Shown: piece after piece, positions 13,516 through 56,784 of the stretch
How the letters are laid out: every line of letters begins with the position of its first letter
Numbering within the stretch: position 1 is the first letter of the stretch
From: Syncephalis plumigaleata
Taxonomy: Eukaryota > Zoopagomycota > Zoopagomycetes > Zoopagales > Piptocephalidaceae
Length of the DNA stretch: 64,000 nt
Assembly (NCBI GenBank): GCA_025201365.1
Contig: JAIXMF010000008.1
Location: 744,001-808,000, forward strand
Reading direction: 5' to 3'
Translations under genes and position numbers: made by a program
The notes under the pieces: model-generated
Told to the model about the DNA's origin: nothing
The model's database searches: none
What the model saw: only the letters and a program-made list of their open reading frames with translations

Positions 13516-13890
13516 TCATCATCACACTAATATTGCGAAACAAATTGCTCATCTACGCCTTATCCATCATAGAATGGTATTGTTTTTAGTGAATAAGAAG
13601 AAGAGGAAGAGGAAAAACAACTGAACTGGCTCCTTTATTCATTTGTGTTAGTTCATCAGAGAGATACACGATAATAACAATAACCATAATAATGATAATA
13701 ATAATAGTAGTAGTAGTGGCAGTGAATGATGGACCATCCATTGACCTAGTCAAATGAATCAAGGAGATATGGTCTCATGCATGTGCTTCATTACTTATTA
13801 GACTTTAAATACAATGAAGATGTCATTTTGTCATTGTATCATATTCCATTGTCGTTATTCTTTTGTTCAGTACCAATAGTAATAGTAACC
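13516..13890 (+). other. Spacer / 5' region of the chitosanase gene
   Basis: Short AT-rich spacer with AAT/TAG microsatellite at 13680-13720. An upstream in-frame ATG at 13777 would add 38 residues before the signal peptide. The ATG at 13891 is preferred because a clean signal sequence follows it directly. Confidence 0.45.
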
Positions 13891-15003
13891 ATGAAAATGC
13901 TATCATTATCTATATTCTTTATTCTAATAGGCGTATTACTACTTGTAATATTGCCAGTAAATAATGCACAGACTAGTGCTGCTCAGCCATATTGTACAGG
14001 TAGTTATGCGATCAATCGCGAGCACTGCGACGTATTTAATTTCTCGCGTAGTAAATCAGCTAGTTCATCGTCGTCGACTATTTGTTCAATCCCCTTTGAT
14101 ATACTAGCCAGTGGCAATGAATTCCCCGACACCGAATACTGGCCGATGGTCTCGGCAAGCAAGTATACAGAAAGGATGGCACGTCGTATCACGAGTACAT
14201 TCGAGAACGGTAGTGATCAGCCGCAATATGACTACGTGGAGAATCTCAATGATCAACGAGGCTATACGGCAGGTATGGTGGGATTTACCACGGCCACGGG
14301 TGACGTGTTGATGGTGGTCGAGCGATACACGCAGGAACGACCGGATAACGCGCTTGCCTCGTTTCTACCCGAACTGCGACGACTCTCCATGCTGGATCAA
14401 TGTGATGCGCAGCGTAGTAATGTACATGGCCTAGCCGGATTCCCGACTGCTTGGCGCAAGGCCGCTCGAAACGACTCGTTATTTCACGCGGTTCAAGCGA
14501 GAGCAGCGCATGATCTCTGCTTTGAGCCTGCCCTTAAATTTGCTCGTAAAGCGGGTGTTCACTCACCACTCGGTATCGCTATATTTTATGATACTGTCGT
14601 GCAACATGGTTGGCATTTGACAGAGCCAGAGATTAATATACAAAGAATACTCTCGCTCACGACGGAGAATGATCGAAAGGACGGTGGACAATCCGAGGTT
14701 GACTATTTAAACGACTTTTTACACGTACGACGTAGAATGCTATGCTGCTACCCGGATAATACTTGGCCCGAGTCAGCAGGTAGAGTGGCTGATTTGCAGT
14801 CACTACTACAATCCGGTAACACTGACTTGTCATCACCGGTGTCGTTACTAGCATTTAATACTATCCTTAAAGATGTGGACGATGAGAGAATACGCGTAAA
14901 GCATAAGCATCGTAACAATAGTACGACTAGTCATCGTCATCATTATCATCATCCATTGGATAGCTCTAGGAAGAATACAACACGTATATCAACAAACGAC
15001 TAA
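13891..15003 (+). CDS. Secreted chitosanase, glycoside hydrolase family 46
   Basis: Endo-hydrolase of chitosan, predicted extracellular. The chosen start MKMLSLSIFFILIGVLLL begins a signal peptide that ends near NNAQT. The GH46 core is plain: TSTFENGSDQPQYDYVENL contains the catalytic Glu (in FENG), and NDQRGYTAGMVGFTTATGD contains the catalytic Asp (in NDQRGYT). Then come VVERYTQERPDNALASFLPE, LAGFPTAWRKAA, AIFYDTVVQHGW and DYLNDFLHVRR. Mature length (~345 aa) exceeds bacterial GH46 (~260), because of a Ser-rich linker after the signal and a His/Arg-rich tail. No intron is seen, unlike most neighbours. GH46 is mainly bacterial, with some viral and zygomycete members, so ancient lateral transfer is plausible. 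Chitosan is a wall polymer of zygomycete-grade fungi: the role may be wall remodelling or attack on other fungi. Confidence 0.92.
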   Translation: MKMLSLSIFFILIGVLLLVILPVNNAQTSAAQPYCTGSYAINREHCDVFNFSRSKSASSSSSTICSIPFDILASGNEFPDTEYWPMVSASKYTERMARRITSTFENGSDQPQYDYVENLNDQRGYTAGMVGFTTATGDVLMVVERYTQERPDNALASFLPELRRLSMLDQCDAQRSNVHGLAGFPTAWRKAARNDSLFHAVQARAAHDLCFEPALKFARKAGVHSPLGIAIFYDTVVQHGWHLTEPEINIQRILSLTTENDRKDGGQSEVDYLNDFLHVRRRMLCCYPDNTWPESAGRVADLQSLLQSGNTDLSSPVSLLAFNTILKDVDDERIRVKHKHRNNSTTSHRHHYHHPLDSSRKNTTRISTND

Positions 15004-21556: not shown

Positions 21557-23159
21557 TATATTGTAAGCAGTAATAGCTTACTCGTTTATTATTTGCTATT
21601 ACTATAACTACCACCACCTCCTCCACCACTTATTATTAGTGTTATTACGGTATAGGTGCTGACCTCATATATAGTGTAGTGTTGTACGCGCGATAACCAA
21701 CCGCAATAGCATATCTTCCTATCTTCCCTTTAGTATCATTGTTGTGACAATACAGCATACATACACGCTATTGCAGTTGTATTGCGGTGCGTTTGATACA
21801 CCACATACGTCGTTCAGTGCCGTGGTATTATTGACTTACCGTGTAGGTTATTGTTGCTACTGGCGTTTGTATACGGCGAGTCTCTCTTTCCCTCTCTCGC
21901 TCTATAACTGACTCTTCTTCCTCTTATCCCTCTTCCTCGTATATCACATCGTTCCATCCCCTCTTCTCCTTCGTTATCAATTCTCTCTTCTACCTAGTGG
22001 GTGTCCACGGTACTAATAATAGTACTGCGTCTGGCTTGGTTGTTGAACTGTGCTTGTGACGCAACACAAATTGAAGAGAGCTGGTTCTCCTCTAATTTGC
22101 TATTTTTATTCATTGATCCTTTCCTATTCCTCTTTTATTAGTCTATTATTCCTTCGCTCTCTTTTGCTCTCGTATTTACTCAATCGCTCAATCGTTCATA
22201 CACACGTTACTGTGTATCAACCTATCCAATTTATTACCGTTATTATTTGTACTGCGCATTTGTAAGTCACTATTACCATTATCGCGATTTATTATTGTAT
22301 GAGATGTGGAAATCAGATCTATACGAGTACATTTGGCGGAATGTAACACGGCTGTGACGTGATGCCATGATGAAGCGGAGTTACCTGATAATGATAATCA
22401 TTATGATTATGATTATTATGATGGCAATGATGATGATGATGATGATGATGACGATGATGTGCGTGTGATGTATACACCAGCTATTGCCGTAGCAATAATA
22501 TGCTTACGTACATGGTATTACGCACTAGCAGTGATGGAAAGGGGGATGGATTGGATGAGACTAGAGGAAATAAGGAGATCAAGAGCATTTGTGTATGTGT
22601 GTGCGCGTGTGCATGCGTGTGTGTGTGTGTGTGTGTGCATGATGGTGTAAATGAATGAGTTACGGCAGGAGTACACGGAGTGATATCTGATCATAGTAAA
22701 CAATAACATCCATATGGTCACTACGGTTACAGCGACAACGACAGCAACAGCAACAGCAACAGGAGTGCTAGCAGGAGTAACAGTAGTAACAATGGATGAC
22801 GTTTACACCAGTGTCATGGTAGTTCCCCAGACAACAGCGGATTGTGACGCAGCTGCGATACGATTACGTATCAATACACACGTCGATGTTGCTGCATCTG
22901 TTGTCGCTGTTGCTCCTAATATTAACGTGAATGATGCTGGTGACGGGAGATTCGTCTAATAGTCAACTAGTAGCCGGTTACCTTTATTGATGACTATACT
23001 AGTTACTAGTCGTAGCAGTAGTAGCTGTATTATTATATGATATTCTATTCCACTTAATAGCGCACAACCCCTAAACGTAGACTATATTTATTAACTGAAT
23101 AACCCATTACTCTACCAACCTACGGTATATATATATATATTTGTTATAGACAAACCAGC
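21557..23159 (+). promoter_or_regulatory. Duplicated 1.6 kb upstream region of receptor gene A
   Basis: Noncoding by eye but nearly identical to the mirror region 29250-30839. It holds CT tracts (21885-22000), a GAT run near 22430-22455, a GT run near 22615-22637, a CAG/ACA run near 22733-22760 and a TA run at 23127-23141 just before the start. The open frame 22714-22959 (Thr/Ala/Val) is not conserved between arms: a one-base indel changes its end, so it is not called. Confidence 0.6.
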
Positions 23160-24224
23160 ATGACACGAATCAGCATTCTTGCCATTGCTGGCATTGCTTG
23201 CCTGTTGGCCACAAGTGTATCCGCAAGACCTGAGGACAATGCAGCCAAGAAATCTGAGGCTAGTGCATCCAAAGCACCGACACCAGTTGACTTGGCAACC
23301 GCAGAGGAATGCGAGTTTCCATTCTTCCATCGGGAAAAGTGGTGGTCTACTTGTATCACGCTTAGTAGTTCGACTGGAAAAGCTTGGTGTAAACTGAAGA
23401 AAGGATATTATTCGACTGGTACCAAGAATAATGCCACCGCCTATTGCGATCCAACAAAGTTCTCGGCACCGCGCGCTTCAGTTGGCGGCAGCATTCACGA
23501 CTGTCTCACCCAGGAAGTTGACGGCGAATTCTACACGGGTTGTAGTGCCAAGAAGGCGGAGGGACCATTTGTTTGCAAAGTAAACATCGATGGCAAGGAT
23601 GAATACCCAAAGTGTCTTGCGTTCAAGACGCAACTGGATACTTCTAATGAGTCCTCTGCAAAAGCCTCTGTGGCAGGCGAGGTTGCGCCCAGTGATCTAC
23701 AAAAAACTAGTGTAGGCACGCCGACGCTTATAACAGTTTGCGTAACGGTAGGTGCGGTTGCTTTATTAGCCGGTCTATTCGTCTATCGTCGTCGTCAATC
23801 GCGACAAAGCATGTCTATGCAATCGCCGAACAAGAATATGCCACAAATCTCCATGAGTGGACCTAGAATTGAGATTAACCCTCATCCGGCAGCCGCCACT
23901 TCAACTACGCTTTCCGATATTACATTTAGTCAGCATAATTCATCGAGCAATAGTCAGGTTCTCTCGCCTACCAGTCTTGAGGAGATTATGTACCCGGTAG
24001 TCAGCACGTATACCCCGACATTGGGAGACGAGCTCGAGATACAACCAGGCGACAAGGTCAGCATTCTAATCGAATACGATGACGGTTGGTGTCAAGGTGT
24101 CAATCATACACGCGGCGGCTTGAAGGGTGTATTCCCGCGTCATTGTGTCGATATGACGGCAGGTGTTCCCGTTGACGAGTCGATGCGAACTGCAAACACC
24201 AGTGGTGCTAGCTTCAATGCTTAG
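23160..24224 (+). CDS. Receptor-like protein A: signal peptide, FN2-like, TM, SH3
   Basis: 354 aa, no intron. Residues 1-22 are a signal peptide. Residues ~51-96 form a fibronectin type II-like module: CEFPFF, KWWSTC, WCKL and YCD give the four Cys and aromatic positions in order. A second Cys-containing stretch follows (DCLTQEVDGEFYTGC, FVCK, CLAF), then a Ser/Ala-rich stalk and a TM segment near 188-207 (TVGAVALLAGLFVYRRR with a basic stop-transfer). The cytosolic side has a disordered linker and an SH3 domain at ~278-332 (YPVVSTYTPTLGDELEIQPG, DDGWCQG, GVFPRHCVDM). Residues 1-25 and the last 78 match copy B exactly; the middle does not. A type I receptor signalling through SH3 is inferred; the ligand is unknown. 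Confidence 0.85.
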   Translation: MTRISILAIAGIACLLATSVSARPEDNAAKKSEASASKAPTPVDLATAEECEFPFFHREKWWSTCITLSSSTGKAWCKLKKGYYSTGTKNNATAYCDPTKFSAPRASVGGSIHDCLTQEVDGEFYTGCSAKKAEGPFVCKVNIDGKDEYPKCLAFKTQLDTSNESSAKASVAGEVAPSDLQKTSVGTPTLITVCVTVGAVALLAGLFVYRRRQSRQSMSMQSPNKNMPQISMSGPRIEINPHPAAATSTTLSDITFSQHNSSSNSQVLSPTSLEEIMYPVVSTYTPTLGDELEIQPGDKVSILIEYDDGWCQGVNHTRGGLKGVFPRHCVDMTAGVPVDESMRTANTSGASFNA

Positions 24225-25241
24225 AACACACCACTGCCACCATTATCACCACCACGACAAGAACAACGAGGACACCAACAATACACATTAGCAAATACAT
24301 GTAGCATACGAACGCACATGCACGTGTTGAAGCCATTATATTAACTACTACCACTACCACTACTATTCCTACTACTTCGACTACTCGACTATCTCGACTA
24401 TTTCGACTATTGCATATTTATTACTGCAATGGGTAGATGTGGTGCATAATGGTGCACGATATGTGTACGTGTATGAGTGTGAGTGTGTGAGTACACTTGT
24501 ATTTGTACGTGTGTGTAAGTTTGTGTCTACGCGTAATTGATTCCTCCCTTTCTAATAAGCGTAGCTTGTACGCAATGTAACGGTAGCAGCAGTGCACGCG
24601 CCTTACATTGCACACGCTAATCTACGCACATCCACCATCCACCATCTGCCATCTGCCATCTACCATCTACCATCTGCCATCTGCCATGATCGTCTGTCAC
24701 ACTATATTATTAATATTATTAATGACAATTAAACGTTATCATAATGGTAATAATTGTCCTCGATAGAGCTGACCCTTATTTTATTATGACTCGTAAGATG
24801 TAGACTACTACAATACTAGCAGCTGCAACGATGTACTCTACTGCTGACCAGTGAGTAGTGCAGCTGCCATGTATTAGCTTAACATGTGTGTGTATGAATG
24901 TGTGTATGAATGTGTGTGTACTGCAATGTGTGAGTGTGTATATCCTACTATTAGTTATCTAGTGTATACAAGTGCGTTTACTATTACAAGATCCATCGTA
25001 GTTCAATCATAACAATGCTGCCTAATACGATTCTACCATAACCTGAATGATGATGACAGTAACAATAAGATTTAACAACAATCCTGTTGCGTTTGACTAG
25101 TTATCTCGCATCAATTATACAATATATCCATGAGAAATAAATCCATTAAAATAACAAACTGACAAGTCATCAAGTGTAAACAATGACTGATGACTATGAG
25201 ATAGTGTAGATACATTTACATTGATTTAAGTGTGATTGTTA
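24225..25241 (+). other. Duplicated 3' flank of receptor gene A
   Basis: About 1 kb noncoding, mirrored at 27159-28165. It holds ACT repeats near 24340-24410, a GT-rich stretch near 24460-24520, a 10-11 bp minisatellite of CCATCTGC-type units at 24630-24685 whose copy number differs between arms, and TGTGTATGAA repeats near 24885-24915. No gene seen. Confidence 0.5.
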
Positions 25242-27158
25242 TATTTTTACTTTTGTTCTATTACTCTTTACCTTTTTCATTACAAGCTTTCATGACACGT
25301 CTCTCTAACATTGATGGAATAGCCGCTGACGTGTTAACGACACTGAATACAGCTGGTATACACACGGGTAGGTTTACTTATTATAATAACATGTTAGTAA
25401 TTGTCTAATGTAGTCGTGTAATCAAACACATGCAACTCTAGTTCAAGATGTTCTAGTTATTGACGAGAAAACACTATGTAATAAGACAAAACTATCCGTA
25501 TCAGTAAGTTATAAGGGTATGCTATATGCTAATTACAGGTTGCTAATGGAATTAGACGGTGGAGCACTTGTATGAACTATTGTTGGATAGTTTGAACGTA
25601 TCAATGGATAATGCCGCTATGCTTGCTACGTCGACAGCGAATACAATCTGTGCTAGTCGTCGATTATCCACCGGCTGCACTAGGTAACTAATCTATACCA
25701 CTATTGCTGTATTGCATTATAGGAAATCTTACTATTACCATTATTAGTATAGATCGTTTATTAGGTGGTGGTCTATTGCCTGGTCATATTGTTGAATTAT
25801 TTGGACTAGCGGGATCGGGTAAAACTCAGGTAAATTGTCAATATCGCATGAGTACGCTTTATTCAGTAGATTAATATCGATGATACAGATTGCTCATAAT
25901 GTAGTGGCACAAGGCATTATAGCGCTACATACAATGGAGCAGAATAATGTAAATCATAGTGCACTGTTACTGCCGATAATCTACCATATATCATCTATAT
26001 CGATACATGTGGCTCATTCTCCGCGCATAGGCTACGAACACTACTAGCTAGTCAATGGACGAAGCATGAAGGTATGTCAATGATACTTGTTGACCTTGCT
26101 CTTATTCATTAATATATATATATATGCTTGCACTCATTGTTATACAATGTAGACTGTAATGCAGCTCTAAAGCGTGTATCGATATTCTCCTGTAACACTA
26201 TATACGAAGTATTTGACACATTCGAGCAATTGGGGATATTTAGCCATTCGAATGTAGGTATACTCGTGACGAATCTATCTTACCGACTAACTATTTGATC
26301 ATAAGAAATCGCCGTATTTATTAGTCATTGATTCGGTGTCAGCAGTGCTATCGCCGCTACTTTCTAATCATTCACGTCAAGGTATATACATATATATTTA
26401 CATAACTGCAATGATCATACTTGTTTACTTATCGGGTATCTAGGTCATGCACTCATGTTGGAGTTAGCCTATACGCTATCTGATATTGCCCATAGACATT
26501 CTAGTAGAATATTGGTAAGGATAATTAAGCGTGTATTCATCCTATATCCAATTATTCATTTGTTGCTAGATATTGAATACTGCTGTACGTCAAGTGCCAG
26601 AAGACGAGGACAATGGCAATAATCAAGAAGGCGCGATGGCAACTAGTACACAGACAACATCGTCGGCACCATTGTTCAAACCGGCTCTAGGTGCCTCTTG
26701 GCAGTATACACCGCACACGCGTATTTATATGCACGCGATACTGAGTCGCAGTCCAGATCCATTCGTTATTGCTCGCTTGTTCGATCTAAGCAGTCGGTAA
26801 GTTTGTGAATAAATTAGTATCATGCTATTAAAGTAAGTAAGTAATAAATACAATAATGGTCAATTGTCATGTAGGCATTACATTTACGTAGAGAACTTTT
26901 CAAGTTTGATTCATCGTCCTAACAACTTTCGAATATTATTATTATCACTCCAACATAAATATATATATATCGTGTTATTGTACCTTGTCCATGTTCTATG
27001 CAAGTAAGTGCTTATTCGTACTAGTAGGCTTATACTGGTTAGCTGTAGAAGTGCCAGTTCAGCCTGATAGTCTTATTCTAACTAGATCATTTGTATTTAA
27101 TAGTTTTCCAACTTACATTCTAATAGATTGTAAAGGATGTCGATATTGCAGCCAACTT
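25242..27158. other. Single-copy loop between inverted-repeat arms
   Basis: A 1917 bp spacer with no mirrored partner. It contains essentially one gene, the RAD51D-like recombinase, starting 51 bp after the left arm ends. In one splice reading the gene ends on the first base of the right arm. Confidence 0.85.
25292..27007 (+). CDS. RAD51D: RAD51 paralogue, RAD51D-like
   Basis: RecA-family ATPase of homologous recombination; RAD51D works with other RAD51 paralogues (S. pombe Rdl1). Start MTRLSNIDGIAADVLTTLNT; about nine short exons. The Walker A exon reads STGCTSIDRLLGGG, then GHIVELFGLAGSGKTQ (GLAGSGKT). Later come YIIYIDTCGSFSAHRLRTLL, LVIDSVSAVLSPLLSNHSRQ (Walker B region), GHALMLELAYTLSDIAHRHS, ILNTAVRQVPED and the RAD51D-type ALGASWQYTPHTRIYMH. 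A one-base frame break lies near 25965-25970, between VNHSAL and TADNLPY. The C-terminus is uncertain. An in-frame TAA is at 27005-27007, but the GTAAGT beginning at 27004 could instead splice to an exon near 27050 that stops at 27159-27161. Family call good; subtype likely. Confidence 0.78.
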
Positions 27159-27161
27159 TAA

Positions 27162-28165
27162 CAATCACACTTAAATCAATGTAAATGTATCTACACTATC
27201 TCATAGTCATCAGTCATTGTTTACACTTGATGACTTGTCAGTTTGTTATTTTAATGGATTTATTTCTCATGGATATATTGTATAATTGATGCGAGATAAC
27301 TAGTCAAACGCAACAGGATTGTTGTTAAATCTTATTGTTACTGTCATCATCATTCAGGTTATGGTAGAATCGTATTAGGCAGCATTGTTATGATTGAACT
27401 ACGATGGATCTTGTAATAGTAAACGCACTTGTATACACTAGATAACTAATAGTAGGATATACACACTCACACATTGCAGTACACACACATTCATACACAC
27501 ATTCATACACACACATGTTAAGCTAATACATGGCAGCTGCACTACTCACTGGTCAGCAGTAGAGTACATCGTTGCAGCTGCTAGTATTGTAGTAGTCTAC
27601 ATCTTACGAGTCATAATAAAATAAGGGTCAGCTCTATCGAGGACAATTATTACCATTATGATAACGTTTAATTGTCATTAATAATATTAATAATATAGTG
27701 TGACAGACGATCATGGCAGATGGCAGATGGTAGATGGTGGATGGCAGATGGTGGATGGGATGTGCGTAGATTAGCGTGTGCAATGTAAGGCGCGTGCACT
27801 GCTGCTACCGTTACATTGCGTACAAGCTACGCTTATTAGAAAGGAGGAATCAATTACGCGTAGACACAAACTTACACACACGTACAAATACAGGTGTACT
27901 CACACACTCACACTCATACACGTACACATATCGTGCACCATTATGCACCACATCTACCCATTGCAGTAATAAATATGCAATAGTCGAAATAGTCGAAATA
28001 GTCGAGTAGTCGAAGTAGTAGGAATAGTAGTGGTAGTGGTAGTAGTTAATATAATGGCTTCAACACGTGCATGTGCGTTCGTATGCTACATGTATTTGCT
28101 AATGTGTATTGTTGGTGTCCTCGTTGTTCTTGTCGTGGTGGTGATAATGGTGGCAGTGGTGTGTT
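27162..28165 (-). other. Duplicated 3' flank of receptor gene B
   Basis: Mirror of 24225-25241 with the same minisatellite (27714-27758) and CA-rich stretches (27865-27930) in slightly different lengths. No gene seen. Confidence 0.5.
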
Positions 28166-29249
28166 CTAAGCATTGAAGCTAGCACCACTGGTGTTTGCAG
28201 TTCGCATCGACTCGTCAACGGGAACACCTGCCGTCATATCGACACAATGACGCGGGAATACACCCTTCAAGCCGCCGCGTGTATGATTGACACCTTGACA
28301 CCAACCGTCATCGTATTCGATTAGAATGCTGACCTTGTCGCCTGGTTGTATCTCGAGCTCGTCTCCCAATGTCGGGGTATACGTGCTGACTACCGGGTAC
28401 ATACGCTCACCTGGGCTCATGGGCGAGAACATTTGGCTGCTTGTTGTGGATTCACGATATTCTGCAGCCGCAGCAGCAGCAGCGATATTGAAACCATTAC
28501 CAACGGGTGCCGTTTCCATTTGTCCACTAGCCTTTCCTGGTATTGCCATGCTAAGTTCTGGCGCGATTGACGACGACGGTAAATGAATAGACCGGCCAAT
28601 AAAGCCACTAGGACACAGCCACCTATAACACCCGAGACTGCACCGACATTAACACCACCCGTGCTCTTGGCATTAGCGTCGTCAGTTCCTACGGCCGAGC
28701 CTTGAACTACCGCTTTCGATGCATCATATCCGGAATCCAGTTGAGACTTCAACATTGAGCAGGAACCCTTGGACGGTTTTTCATCTGCTTTAGTTTGCAG
28801 TAGAAGTTCTGGCTATTACCGTCCTCGCTGCTACAAGTTGCGCTGGCTACTTTCTTTGATGGTTTTTCTTCTTGAAGACAAGCTTTCTTATCTCCGCCAA
28901 CCATAATGTAAACAGGCTGGAATGCACCCATATCGCAGTAGAGCCAGTTGTTCATGGGAGCCGGTGGCGTGTATTGTGGCTTTAGTACACACATTGGTTT
29001 ATCAGGTGCATCGACGGTACTAATACAGCCATACCACCATTTGTCATCGTAGAAGAATGGGAATTGACAAACTTCAGGTGTACCAAGAGAAGTGGTTACA
29101 TTTTTGCTACCAGTAGACGGAGCTTCAGGTGTACCAGCAGGAGCGGATATCTCTTTGATATGATTAGGCGGAGCTTCAGGTCTTGCGGATACACTTGTGG
29201 CCAACAGGCAAGCAATGCCAGCAATGGCAAGAATGCTGATTCGTGTCAT
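28166..29249 (-). CDS. Receptor-like protein B: signal peptide, FN2-like, TM, SH3
   Basis: Paralogue of gene A in the opposite arm. The signal peptide (MTRISILAIAGIACLLATSV) and final 78 residues including the SH3 domain are identical to A. The ectodomain differs: a Pro/Ser/Thr-rich stretch, then an FN2-like module (CQFPFFYDDKWWYGC, then CVLK and YCD) and a second Cys segment (KKACLQEE, FYCKL). The usual Trp of the WC pair is Met here. The TM segment (VALLAGLFIYRRRQSRQ) is close to that of A. The linker has an Ala run and a Ser/Thr stretch. Two one-base frame breaks occur, near 28790-28796 (stalk) and 28558-28562 (just after the TM). Both resemble the missing-base breaks elsewhere, and the SH3 frame downstream is unblemished, so the gene may be functional. 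Confidence 0.78.
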
Positions 29250-30839
29250 GCTGGTTTGTCTATAACAAATATATATATATATACCGTAGGTTGGTAGAGT
29301 AATGGGTTATTCAGTTAATAAATATAGTCTACGTTTAGGGGTTGTGCGCTATTAAGTGGAATAGAATATCATATAATAATACAGCTACTACTGCTACGAC
29401 TAGTAACTAGTATAGTCATCAATAAAGGTAACCGGCTACTAGTTGACTATTAGACGAATCTCCCGTCACCAGCATCATTCACGTTAATATTAGGAGCAAC
29501 AGCGACAACAGAGCAGCAACATCGACGTGTGTATTGATACGTAATCGTATCGCAGCTGCGTCACAATCCGCTGTTGTCTGGGGAACTACCATGACACTGA
29601 TGTAAACGTCATCCATTGTTACTACTGTTACTCCTGCTAGCACTCCTGTTGCGGTTGCTGTTGCTGTCGTTGTCGCTGTAACCGTAGTGACCATATGGAT
29701 GTTATTGTTTACTATGATCAGATGTCACTCCGTGTACTCCTGCCGTAACTCATTCATTTACACCATCATGCACACACACACACACACGCATGCACACGCG
29801 CACACACATACACAAATGCTCTTGATCTCCTTATTTCCTCTAGACTCATCCAATCCATCCCCCTTTCCATCACTGCTAGTGCGTATACCATGCACGTAAG
29901 CATGTTATTGCTACGGCAATAGCTGGTGTATACATCACACGCACATCATCGTCATCATCATCATCATCATCATTCATCATAATAATCATAATCATAATGA
30001 TTATCATTATCAGGTAACTCCGCTTCATCATGGCATCAAGTCACAGCCGTGTTACATTCCGCCAAATGTACTCGTATAGATCTGATTTCCACATCTCATA
30101 CAATAATAAATCGCGATAATGGTAATAGTGACTTACAAATGCGCAGTACAAATAATAACGGTAATAAATTGGATAGGTTGATACACAGTAACGTGTGTAT
30201 GAACGATTGAGCGATTGAGTAAATACGAGAGCAAAAGAGAGCGAAGGAATAATAGACTAATAAAAGAGGAATAGGAAAGGATCAATGAATAAAAATAGCA
30301 AATTAGAGGAGAACCAGCTCTCTTCAATTTGTGTTGCGTCACAAGCACAGTTCAACAACCAAGCTAGACGCAGTACTATTATTAGTACCGTGGACACCCA
30401 CTAGGTAGAAGAGAGAATTGATAACGAAGGAGAAGAGGGGATGGAACGATGTGATATACGAGGAAGAGGGATAAGAGGAAGAAGAGTCAGTTATAGAGCG
30501 AGAGAGAAAGAGAGACTCGCCGTATACAAACGCCAGTAGCAACAATAACCTACACGGTAAGTCAATAATACCACGGCACTGAACGACGTATGTGGCGTAT
30601 CAAATGCACCGCAATACAACTGCAATAGCGTGTATGTATGCTGTATTGTCACAACAATGATACTAAAGGGAAGATAGGAAGATATGCTATTGCGGTTGGT
30701 TATCGCGCGTACAACACTACACTATATATGAGGTCAGCACCTATACCGTAATAACACTAGTAATAAGTGGTGGAGGAGGTGGTGGTAGTTATAGTAATAG
30801 CAAATAATAAACGAGTAAGCTATTACTGCTTACAATATA
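29250..30839 (-). promoter_or_regulatory. Duplicated upstream region of receptor gene B
   Basis: Mirror of 21557-23159, including the TA run just before the start, the CT tracts (seen as GA on +, 30440-30520) and GAT/CA runs of different length. It is probably the promoter and 5' leader. Nothing here is supported as coding. Confidence 0.6.
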
Positions 30840-54482: not shown

Positions 54483-55838
54483 CTATTTTTGAGATTCAAC
54501 ATCAATGGTAGTAGGTGAAGTTAGCGTGGTGGCATTCAATTCCACAGGAGAGGTCGGCTTCGATATCTGATCATAGTTGTATTCACCCATTTGAGTGACA
54601 TCAAGACCAAGGGCCTCCTCCTCCTCGTCAACACGTAGACGAAGCAATGGGATCTTATTCATAATGAATAGAATGATAAGCGTGATGACAAATGCCCAGC
54701 CAGCACCGGCTGCACTAGCTGCCATCTGGATCGGTAGCTGAATCCAATGACCGTTGACCCAGCCACCCGGGATACTGGCATTATCAAGTGAAGCGATACT
54801 GGCATCGGCAAATATACCGGTTAGCAGATTGCCCACGAGGCCACCAACACCATGTACGCTGAACACGTCGAGTGCATCGTCGTAGCGAAGTCGATGCTTG
54901 AGATCGCCGGCGAAATGGCAGACCACACCCGCGATAATACCGAATACGAGTGCGGCCCATGGTTCAACGAAACCCGATGCCGGTGTGATGGCAACGAGTC
55001 CGGCCACGGCACCGCTACAAAAGTGGAAACTACTTAGTTTACGCTCGTGTCGATAAGCCAGCAGCATCCAGGTGAGTCCGGATGCAGCGGCGGCCACATT
55101 CGTCACGATAGCTGCCATACCGGCACGTCCATTAGCCGCGACAGCACTACCAGGATTGAAACCGATCCAGCCAAACCATAGTAAAGCCGTACCCAGCATG
55201 ACATTGGCGTAGTTGTGCGGCTTGAAGTTCTCCTTGCCAAAGCCTTGACGACGACCAACGACGATGGCGTAGGCGAGTGCGGCGAATCCACTGCTCATGT
55301 GTACGGGAGTGCCACCCGCGTAATCGAGACTACCCAGGGTGCGTAGCCAACCGTTGGGTGCCCATGTCCAATAGGCAATCGGATTGTAGACGAGTGTCGA
55401 CCAAATAAACAGGAATACAATGGCGGGCAGGATGCGAGAACGTTCGGCGGCGGCACCAAACGCTAACGCGGGTGTGAGTGCGGCAAACATACTCTGGTAG
55501 GTGCAGTAGACGGTCTCGGAGATGGTGGGCGCATTGGGATGTGGCGCATTACCGACGCCCATGAGAAAGGCTTGCTTGAGATTGCCGATGAATATGCCAC
55601 CATCTTTGGCGAGGGCCAACGAGTAGCCCCATACAAACCACTCGATACCGACCACGGCCAGACTAAGCATACTAAGAAAGATGAGGGAGAGTGCGTTCTT
55701 GCTACGTGCCATGCCACTGTAGAAGTAGCCGACACCGGGAATCATTATAAATACAAGGGCGGTGGAGGTGAGCACCCATGATTGATCGCCTCCGGAGAGT
55801 GAGGATACCTCTGCGCTTTGTCGTCGAATGAGATGCAT
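54483..55838 (-). CDS. MEP: Ammonium transporter, Mep/Amt family
   Basis: Plasma-membrane NH4+/NH3 transporter, 451 aa, single exon. Eleven hydrophobic segments are visible, opening SWVLTSTALVFIMIPGVGYF and YSGMARSKNALSLIFLSML. Key residues: the pore twin histidines sit in GGTPVHMSSGFAALAY and VFSVHGVGGLVGNLLTG. The family signature block is CSGAVAGLVAITPASGFVEP, and WIGFNPGSAVAANGRAG is also typical. The C-terminal tail (LRVDEEEEALGLDVTQMGEY) carries the GLD regulatory motif. No intron, and codon use is GC-richer than neighbouring spacers, typical of a strongly expressed gene. The motif carried by Mep2-type sensors versus plain transporters cannot be decided by eye. Confidence 0.96.
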   Translation of the reverse strand: MHLIRRQSAEVSSLSGGDQSWVLTSTALVFIMIPGVGYFYSGMARSKNALSLIFLSMLSLAVVGIEWFVWGYSLALAKDGGIFIGNLKQAFLMGVGNAPHPNAPTISETVYCTYQSMFAALTPALAFGAAAERSRILPAIVFLFIWSTLVYNPIAYWTWAPNGWLRTLGSLDYAGGTPVHMSSGFAALAYAIVVGRRQGFGKENFKPHNYANVMLGTALLWFGWIGFNPGSAVAANGRAGMAAIVTNVAAAASGLTWMLLAYRHERKLSSFHFCSGAVAGLVAITPASGFVEPWAALVFGIIAGVVCHFAGDLKHRLRYDDALDVFSVHGVGGLVGNLLTGIFADASIASLDNASIPGGWVNGHWIQLPIQMAASAAGAGWAFVITLIILFIMNKIPLLRLRVDEEEEALGLDVTQMGEYNYDQISKPTSPVELNATTLTSPTTIDVESQK

Positions 55839-56784
55839 AATGATATAAGATGAGATGCAACCAAGTAGTTGCTATTACTATTACTCGACAATAAAGTTGC
55901 AAGTAATAATAATCAATGAAATAAGAAAGAATAATAGAGTCAGTTAGATATGTATTACACGTTACAATGTTAAATAAAATAACCATATAGGTAGATAAAG
56001 AGTAATTAGCAATAAATGATAGTAGCAGTAATAGATGAATAACCACTTTGACAACGAACGAGATAATGGTACGTTTGCGTTATAGTAAATGATAGTAATC
56101 GCTTGCTTATTTATACATTTATAAATTACACAAGTAGATGGCACATCCACCTTGGCAATGATAATTAATGATCATGACATTGCTCCTATTAGCCATTGAC
56201 GTGATTGATAGATAACAGGACTGTTCATTGATAGTTAACGCATCCGAACCAGATTACTTGGACATGTTCCTATAATAGTAAAGATACAGGAGATACAGCT
56301 GTCATACACTCCAGATCTAGTCATGTTGTAAGGTGGTAATGCTATTCATTGAATGGAATGGTACTGTAGTAGTGTACGGATAAGCGGAGGAATGGGCCAC
56401 ATGATGATAGATAATCATTAGATAGACTATGTACACGTACATGCATATCGGATCGTATGATGATTGGTGTGATACGGTTTGTGCTTGTAAAGGGCGGAAA
56501 AGGGAACAAGGCATTTTGATAGAGCAAATTAGCGGTGAATGAATTGCACTCAACTCCTTCATCTTGTAATAACTTACTATTGTAAAATAAATGAATAAGT
56601 AAAGCTATAGCAGTTACATATGCAATTATATGATATTTATTCGTAAAAACAAAAAGGCTAACTGTGTAAATTGGTTGGAAAAGTCCTGTAAATAAAGACA
56701 CTAGAATGAGACATGTCCCGTTTTAGTCTAATTTATCTTTTTTTATTTTATTACTATATTTCATTTTTATATACACGACGTGTA
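55839..56784. promoter_or_regulatory. Divergent spacer, ammonium transporter / MTG1
   Basis: 0.95 kb with AT-rich sequence. A mariner-like terminal motif lies at 56669-56690 (listed separately). The frame at 56342-56701 on - has no known domain. GATA elements (GATAAG near 55846 and others) are present but too common in AT-rich DNA to claim nitrogen control. Confidence 0.4.
56669..56690. repeat. Solo Tc1/mariner-like terminal motif
   Basis: On the - strand this reads TACAGGACTTTTCCAACC followed by AATT, close to the motif at 61285-61305 (TACAGGGTTTTCCAACCGAT). TA followed by CAGGG-type ends is usual for Tc1/mariner elements. No partner end in inverted orientation and no transposase was found near by, so this may be a remnant or a chance match. 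Confidence 0.35.

Follow-up and report, generated by a model that had tools for sequence, protein, structure and literature searches.

The locus described here lies in Syncephalis plumigaleata, in a window of 64,000 nucleotides (the whole stretch of DNA that was analyzed). It consists of two receptor genes, A and B, that occupy the arms of an inverted repeat (Table 1). The arms are ~3.7 kb each (21557-25241 on the forward strand and 27159-30839 on the reverse strand) and flank a unique spacer of 1.9 kb (25242-27158), in which pieces of a RAD51-family gene are found. The two genes have the same beginning and the same end, and are embedded in nearly identical noncoding DNA. Between these ends, each gene carries a cassette that is strongly diverged from its counterpart in the other gene.

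Table 1. Features of the receptor locus, in positions of the window. TM, membrane segment; P0002, a metagenome protein.
Feature	Positions	Strand	Observations
Analyzed window			C362:744001-808000 of the 32.6-Mb assembly, 383 contigs
Left outer arm, noncoding, upstream of A	21557..23159	+	12 mismatches to 29250-30839 over 1,590 aligned bases; sharp end at 21557
Receptor gene A, 354 residues	23160..24224	+	Single open frame; Pfam fn2 and SH3 above cut-off
Diverged cassette of A (ectodomain, TM, linker)	23234..23986	+	348 mismatches in 715 aligned bases against B
FN2 domain of A	23310..23414	+	PF00040 genome search, 34.3 bits
SH3 domain of A	23997..24149	+	PF14604 genome search
Left inner arm, noncoding	24225..25241	+	5 mismatches in 1,007 aligned bases; sharp end
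Single-copy spacer with RAD51-family paralogue exons	25242..27158	+	Open pieces, Walker-A motif; first likely codon 25292
Right inner arm, noncoding	27159..28165	-	Inverted-repeat alignment
Receptor gene B, plan as in A	28166..29249	-	Three open pieces, matching P0002 one after another
Diverged cassette of B	28404..29175	-	182/234 residues as in P0002; 85-86/236 as in A
FN2 domain of B	28935..29069	-	PF00040 genome search, 28.6 bits
SH3 domain of B	28241..28393	-	PF14604 genome search
Right outer arm, noncoding, upstream of B	29250..30839	-	Inverted-repeat alignment; sharp end

The product of gene A comprises, in order, a signal peptide, an FN2 domain, a second stretch with four cysteines, one TM, a linker, and an SH3 domain. 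A structure model of this protein is confident at residues ~41-155 and in the SH3 domain. The original prediction, which was made from the letters of this DNA without database searches, had described an FN2-like cysteine frame. This description holds: both copies pass the Pfam fn2 cut-off of 22.2 bits (27.8 and 24.7 bits), and each of the eight ectodomain cysteines of A has an equivalent in B. Seven of these align directly; the sixth has its counterpart two residues further on in B, and is aligned in P0002. The tryptophan ahead of the third FN2 cysteine, which is near-invariant in an alignment of 14 sequences, is methionine in both B and P0002. The only families that match the receptor pair above cut-off are fn2 and SH3, and cadherin repeats were not encountered. 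Fold searches of the Protein Data Bank (PDB) with the receptor proteins returned lists filled by SH3 domain matches. The structure model of P0002 is less confident than that of A, and a library of viral structures yielded nothing useful for it.

The contrast between the cassettes and their surroundings is abrupt. When the arms are aligned base by base, the noncoding parts show 17 mismatches in 2,597 aligned bases (0.65%), of which 14 are transitions, together with seven gap events, and the predicted near-identity of more than 2.5 kb of noncoding flank is thus borne out. The coding ends are also as alike as had been proposed: all 312 bases match, with no mismatch in the 74 bases of the signal-peptide end or in the 238 bases of the last 78 codons with the stop codon. 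In the cassettes, whose predicted boundaries stand, 348 of 715 aligned bases are mismatched, and 85-86 of 236 amino acids are identical (36%). The cassettes are bordered by exact matches 337 and 406 bases long, and at each cassette border, identity drops to roughly half inside one 50-column window. The claim that a coding cassette has outpaced its noncoding flank, with sharp borders on both sides, therefore holds.

Synonymous differences between A and B show the same step. They number 0 in 53 sites of the last 78 codons, 1 in 20 sites of the first 25 codons, and 121 in ~160 sites of the cassette, which is saturated. The single difference in the first 25 codons arises because this count assigns the border codon to the signal end, which has 0 mismatches in 74 bases in the base alignment; codon and residue counts exclude codons that fall in alignment gaps or at the two frame changes of B described below. 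Protein-level selection could not have saturated synonymous sites in one stretch while sparing those a few codons away, so the cassettes must have split long before the ends. The 17 differences in the arms are not significantly patchy (p = 0.066 for the longest identical stretch, which is 831 in the joined arms).

Further evidence comes from outside the genome. A protein search with A as the query gave a list of 46 proteins (E up to 1e-3); with P0002 as the query, the list comprised 41 (E up to 1e-10). P0002 is a metagenome protein encoded on a contig of 6,871 bases, and its 25-residue signal end is the same as that of A and B. Its cassette shares 182 of 234 residues with B (78%) and 84 of 232 with A (36%), and a cassette tree joins it with B with a support of 0.996. 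Judged by these comparisons, P0002 is an orthologue of B. In the tail, the relationship is different: A and B are identical at all 78 residues, and each matches P0002 at 73, with five residues that differ. P0003 is approximately equidistant from A, B, and P0002, with identities of 39-41% in the cassette and 71% in the tail. The genealogies of cassette and tail thus conflict, which implies that the cassettes predate the split from P0002, and that the shared ends are younger than it.

The leader behaves as the tail does, and both are closer between A and B than either gene is to P0002. The P0002 gene call includes sequence ahead of the start codon, which allowed its leader to be compared by way of the translation, with a lower-bound test on 40 translated codons. 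With ungapped pairing, at least 10 of the 39 bases nearest the start codon differ in P0002, whereas the leaders of A and B are identical at 200 of 200 bases. The P0002 leader is nonetheless homologous, because its gapped cost of 32.75 is below those of all 100 shuffles (lowest 40.0). Since this leader is homologous and yet altered, the flank directly upstream is free to change, and the identity of A and B there is young. Strong constraint on the noncoding arms had been named in the original prediction as a possible objection, and these results weaken it for the short upstream stretch that the comparison spans.

Searches of the 32.6-Mb assembly, in which the best candidates were scored, found no additional copies of the arms beyond matches of 35-46 bases, and a PF00040 search found no FN2 genes other than A and B. 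No second haplotype of the locus is present in the assembly: the spacer matches once, as does the left flank, and the right flank gives one full match and 20 short ones. Elsewhere, the assembly contains small contigs that come close to duplicating parts of larger contigs, with ~97-99.6% identity (C351/C375, C320/C112, and C37/C113; loci L026/L027, L017/L018, L033/L034, and L041/L042), which look like second haplotypes. In four comparisons of these three pairs, two of them within one pair, mismatches amount to ~0.5-1.1%, with one 284-base piece at 0.35%. The divergence of the arms (0.65%) is about that of these presumed haplotypes. A single-cell study that includes Syncephalis and Thamnocephalis found three of the four Zoopagomycota that it covered to be non-haploid (PMC6784888). 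The genome of the present strain is probably not haploid either.

The best reading of these data, and a reasonably probable one, is that gene conversion has acted from arm to arm around two old ectodomains that stay apart. A surface receptor gene of the FN2-TM-SH3 type would have been duplicated in inverted orientation around the RAD51-family gene, and this duplication would be old rather than recent. Conversion between the arms would since then have kept the flanks, promoters, signal-peptide end, and SH3 end near-identical, and the cassettes of ectodomain, TM, and linker would have grown too unlike for pairing. Selection presumably purges those events that would merge the cassettes. The outcome would be a pair of receptors with two different outer parts that have one promoter sequence and one signaling end in common. 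G+C content at third codon positions is higher in the homogenized tail (0.54) than in the cassettes (0.45 in A and 0.41 in B), which is weakly consistent with the direction expected for conversion, although amino acid content could produce the same difference. The explanation offered originally, in which homogenized arms surround ectodomains that were either retained or imported, is partly supported: the synonymous step and the conflicting genealogies speak for it, with conversion as the probable agent and selection as what presumably holds the cassettes apart.

Several observations weigh against this reading. All of the 17 differences lie more than 400 nucleotides away from the cassettes, although 4.6 would be expected within that distance (P = 0.004), and a simple block of heterology should leave more differences beside the cassettes than are seen. 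Coding constraint accounts for only part of this difference-free zone; exchange centered on the genes would cover the rest. Also, only one orthologue of B and no orthologue of A occur among the 46 and 41 listed proteins, so the evidence for the inverted duplication comes from a single species. Finally, the frame of B is broken as assembled, which weakens the case for selection on B in the present strain.

The state of B was not foreseen in the original prediction. The match of B to P0002 passes from one reading frame to a second and then to a third, by single-base shifts near 28795 and 28540, both of which adjoin short runs of a single base. Assembly errors often fall beside such runs, and the frame changes may be either assembly errors or recent losses. 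B may thus not be a working gene in the present assembly, and if the frame changes are real, the strain has one working receptor and one that is freshly broken. It is conceivable, although on balance doubtful, that B is a dead or dying copy whose frame is lost and whose cassette is a relic that conversion has not reached. The two frame changes would fit such a copy, as would the cassette branch in FastTree, which is longer for B (0.22) than for P0002 (0.08). However, none of the three open pieces contains a stop codon, the cysteines are retained, relative-rate counts for B versus P0002 come out balanced for five outgroups (6:9, 9:8, 6:4, 7:5, and 7:8), and the positions of the frame changes are those at which assembly errors are common. 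Decay of B would in any case concern its present state, and is compatible with the other accounts of its history. A tandem repeat at 29072-29181 (51-base unit, 2.2 copies, 77% matches), in the N-terminal stretch of the B cassette, makes that cassette longer than the one of P0002.

The main alternative is allelic. The cassettes of A and B might be old allelic types of a single locus, maintained by balancing selection with flanks that mixed freely, and brought together by a recent inverted duplication and an exchange of alleles. This history fits the data nearly as well. It equally accommodates young ends and cassettes that predate the split from P0002, the arms are about as alike as presumed haplotypes, non-haploid genomes were seen in three of the four Zoopagomycota of the single-cell study, and full identity beside the cassettes is expected if exchange was centered on the genes. 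However, it requires two separate recent events, the inverted duplication and the cassette exchange, and the assembly lacks a second haplotype of the locus. We regard it as rather unlikely. A recent duplication whose ectodomains were pushed apart by positive selection would explain why the flanks are young, but the cassette of B is common to another lineage, as P0002 reveals. The saturated synonymous sites of the cassette rule out this history, barring an extreme local mutation rate, and its probability is negligible.

It is also necessary to consider whether the inverted repeat is real, because a misassembly might have joined unrelated or allelic regions. The near-duplicate small contigs give some reason for caution, and the question was judged from the anatomy of the arms. 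A head-to-head misjoin should extend the mirror copy into the spacer and the outer flanks, whereas the arms end sharply at both ends, and neither the spacer nor the outer flanks have another long match in the assembly. In addition, a B-type gene with the identical signal-peptide end is found on an independent contig, that of P0002. A misassembly is thus unlikely, and we assign it very little weight.

The gene in the spacer is another feature that was absent from the original prediction. Its open pieces (25292-26797) begin ~50 bases from the end of the left arm. The piece with the Walker-A motif falls below threshold in profile searches (KaiC-ATPase, 21.0 versus 26.6 bits; Rad51, 20.5 versus 22 bits). 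It matches the PDB chains of archaeal RadA, RAD51 homolog 4, and RAD51 at similar strength, so the gene can be placed only at the level of the RAD51 family. RAD51 homolog 4 is also called RAD51D, and we take the last open piece to resemble RAD51D-type proteins. That a recombination gene should sit within a palindrome is a curiosity, and may be due to chance.

The arrangement of an FN2 domain outside and an SH3 domain inside the membrane suggests a single-pass sensor that recruits signaling or actin proteins, as far as domain order can indicate. Such a receptor presumably resembles yeast Fus1 or Sho1. The original prediction had likened the locus to those of allorecognition or antigen variation. 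A role in allorecognition is possible. Antigen variation is not supported, because only A and B were found among the best candidates in the genome, with no reservoir of additional cassettes. Many Zoopagales are mycoparasites. Perhaps the palindrome is a recognition locus of such a mycoparasite, with two or many trans-species ectodomain types behind a shared promoter, signal peptide, and SH3 end, in which exchange between arms equalizes all but the sensing part and the receptor tells self, mate, or host apart. This proposal is speculative, and we consider it improbable.

Relatives with the FN2-TM-SH3 plan occur in Basidiobolus and in metagenome sources, so the family is not restricted to mycoparasites, and a relative without an fn2 match is found in Piptocephalis. 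No listed relative of the receptors is labeled as Syncephalis or Thamnocephalis, even though transporters of both genera are in the database; most entries are nameless, and absence from these genera is not implied. For example, the ammonium transporter encoded in the window (54486-55868, reverse strand) is 88% identical to a protein of Syncephalis fuscata and 83% identical to one of Thamnocephalis sphaerospora, followed among the matches listed by two metagenome proteins (77% and 73%) and Piptocephalis tieghemiana (68%). An SH3 search of the genome gave 34 matches, and 30 loci were inspected, A and B among them. A TM-like stretch ahead of the SH3 domain, judged in the open frame of that domain, is present at L021 and L044. 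Of these two, only L044 (C201:8164-8313) has a Cys-rich stretch before the TM-like segment, and both lack an fn2 match. Searches of the open literature returned, among the matches listed, no paper on fungal FN2 receptors, and the single paper that matched on allorecognition in fungi together with gene conversion and inverted duplicates deals with a mating-type region.

Other features of the window include a DnaJ-type gene to the left of the arms, in which DUF1977 scores well above its profile cut-off and the DnaJ pieces score below theirs. A GH46 (chitosanase-type) protein is encoded at 13750-15003 (174.9 bits), and its hydrophobic start resembles a signal peptide. Chitosan is present in the walls of mucoralean hosts, and a role of this protein in mycoparasitism is possible. 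No RNA family matches above threshold anywhere in the window.

The receptor pair offers an unusually clear natural example of both homogenization and the point at which it stops, since synonymous sites pass from unchanged to saturated over a few codons at either border of a single gene. It also points to a little-described family of FN2-TM-SH3 receptors in early-diverging fungi, and to a locus that would lend itself to tests of receptor specificity and perhaps of recognition. Under the conversion reading, the pattern is accounted for by known processes, here in a little-known receptor family, and it has published parallels. In Caenorhabditis, as at the present locus, convergent or divergent paralogues lie in inverted repeats, and the repeat arms are far more alike within than between species (PMC1803023). 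In one such pair in C. briggsae, the first 297 nucleotides are 99-100% identical and the C-terminal parts are diverged. The genes are different, however, and the diverged part is one end, in contrast to the internal cassette of A and B, which has homogenized sequence on both sides. The L and M opsins of primates resemble A and B in that conversion homogenizes their introns while the exons for spectral tuning are kept apart, with conflicting trees; they differ in being tandem rather than inverted, in their far smaller divergence, and in that selection is backed by population data (PMC3213168). The clustered protocadherins are likewise surface recognition genes in which conversion has homogenized some parts to >99% and EC1-EC3 remain distinct, but they form large tandem clusters and encode cadherin repeats, whereas A and B are two genes with FN2 and SH3 domains (PMC1852091). 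Finally, CD300A and CD300C are, like A and B, a receptor pair in which one part is homogenized by conversion and another is kept apart. Their arrangement is the reverse of that of A and B, because the ectodomain is homogenized and the signaling end is different (PMC12447643).

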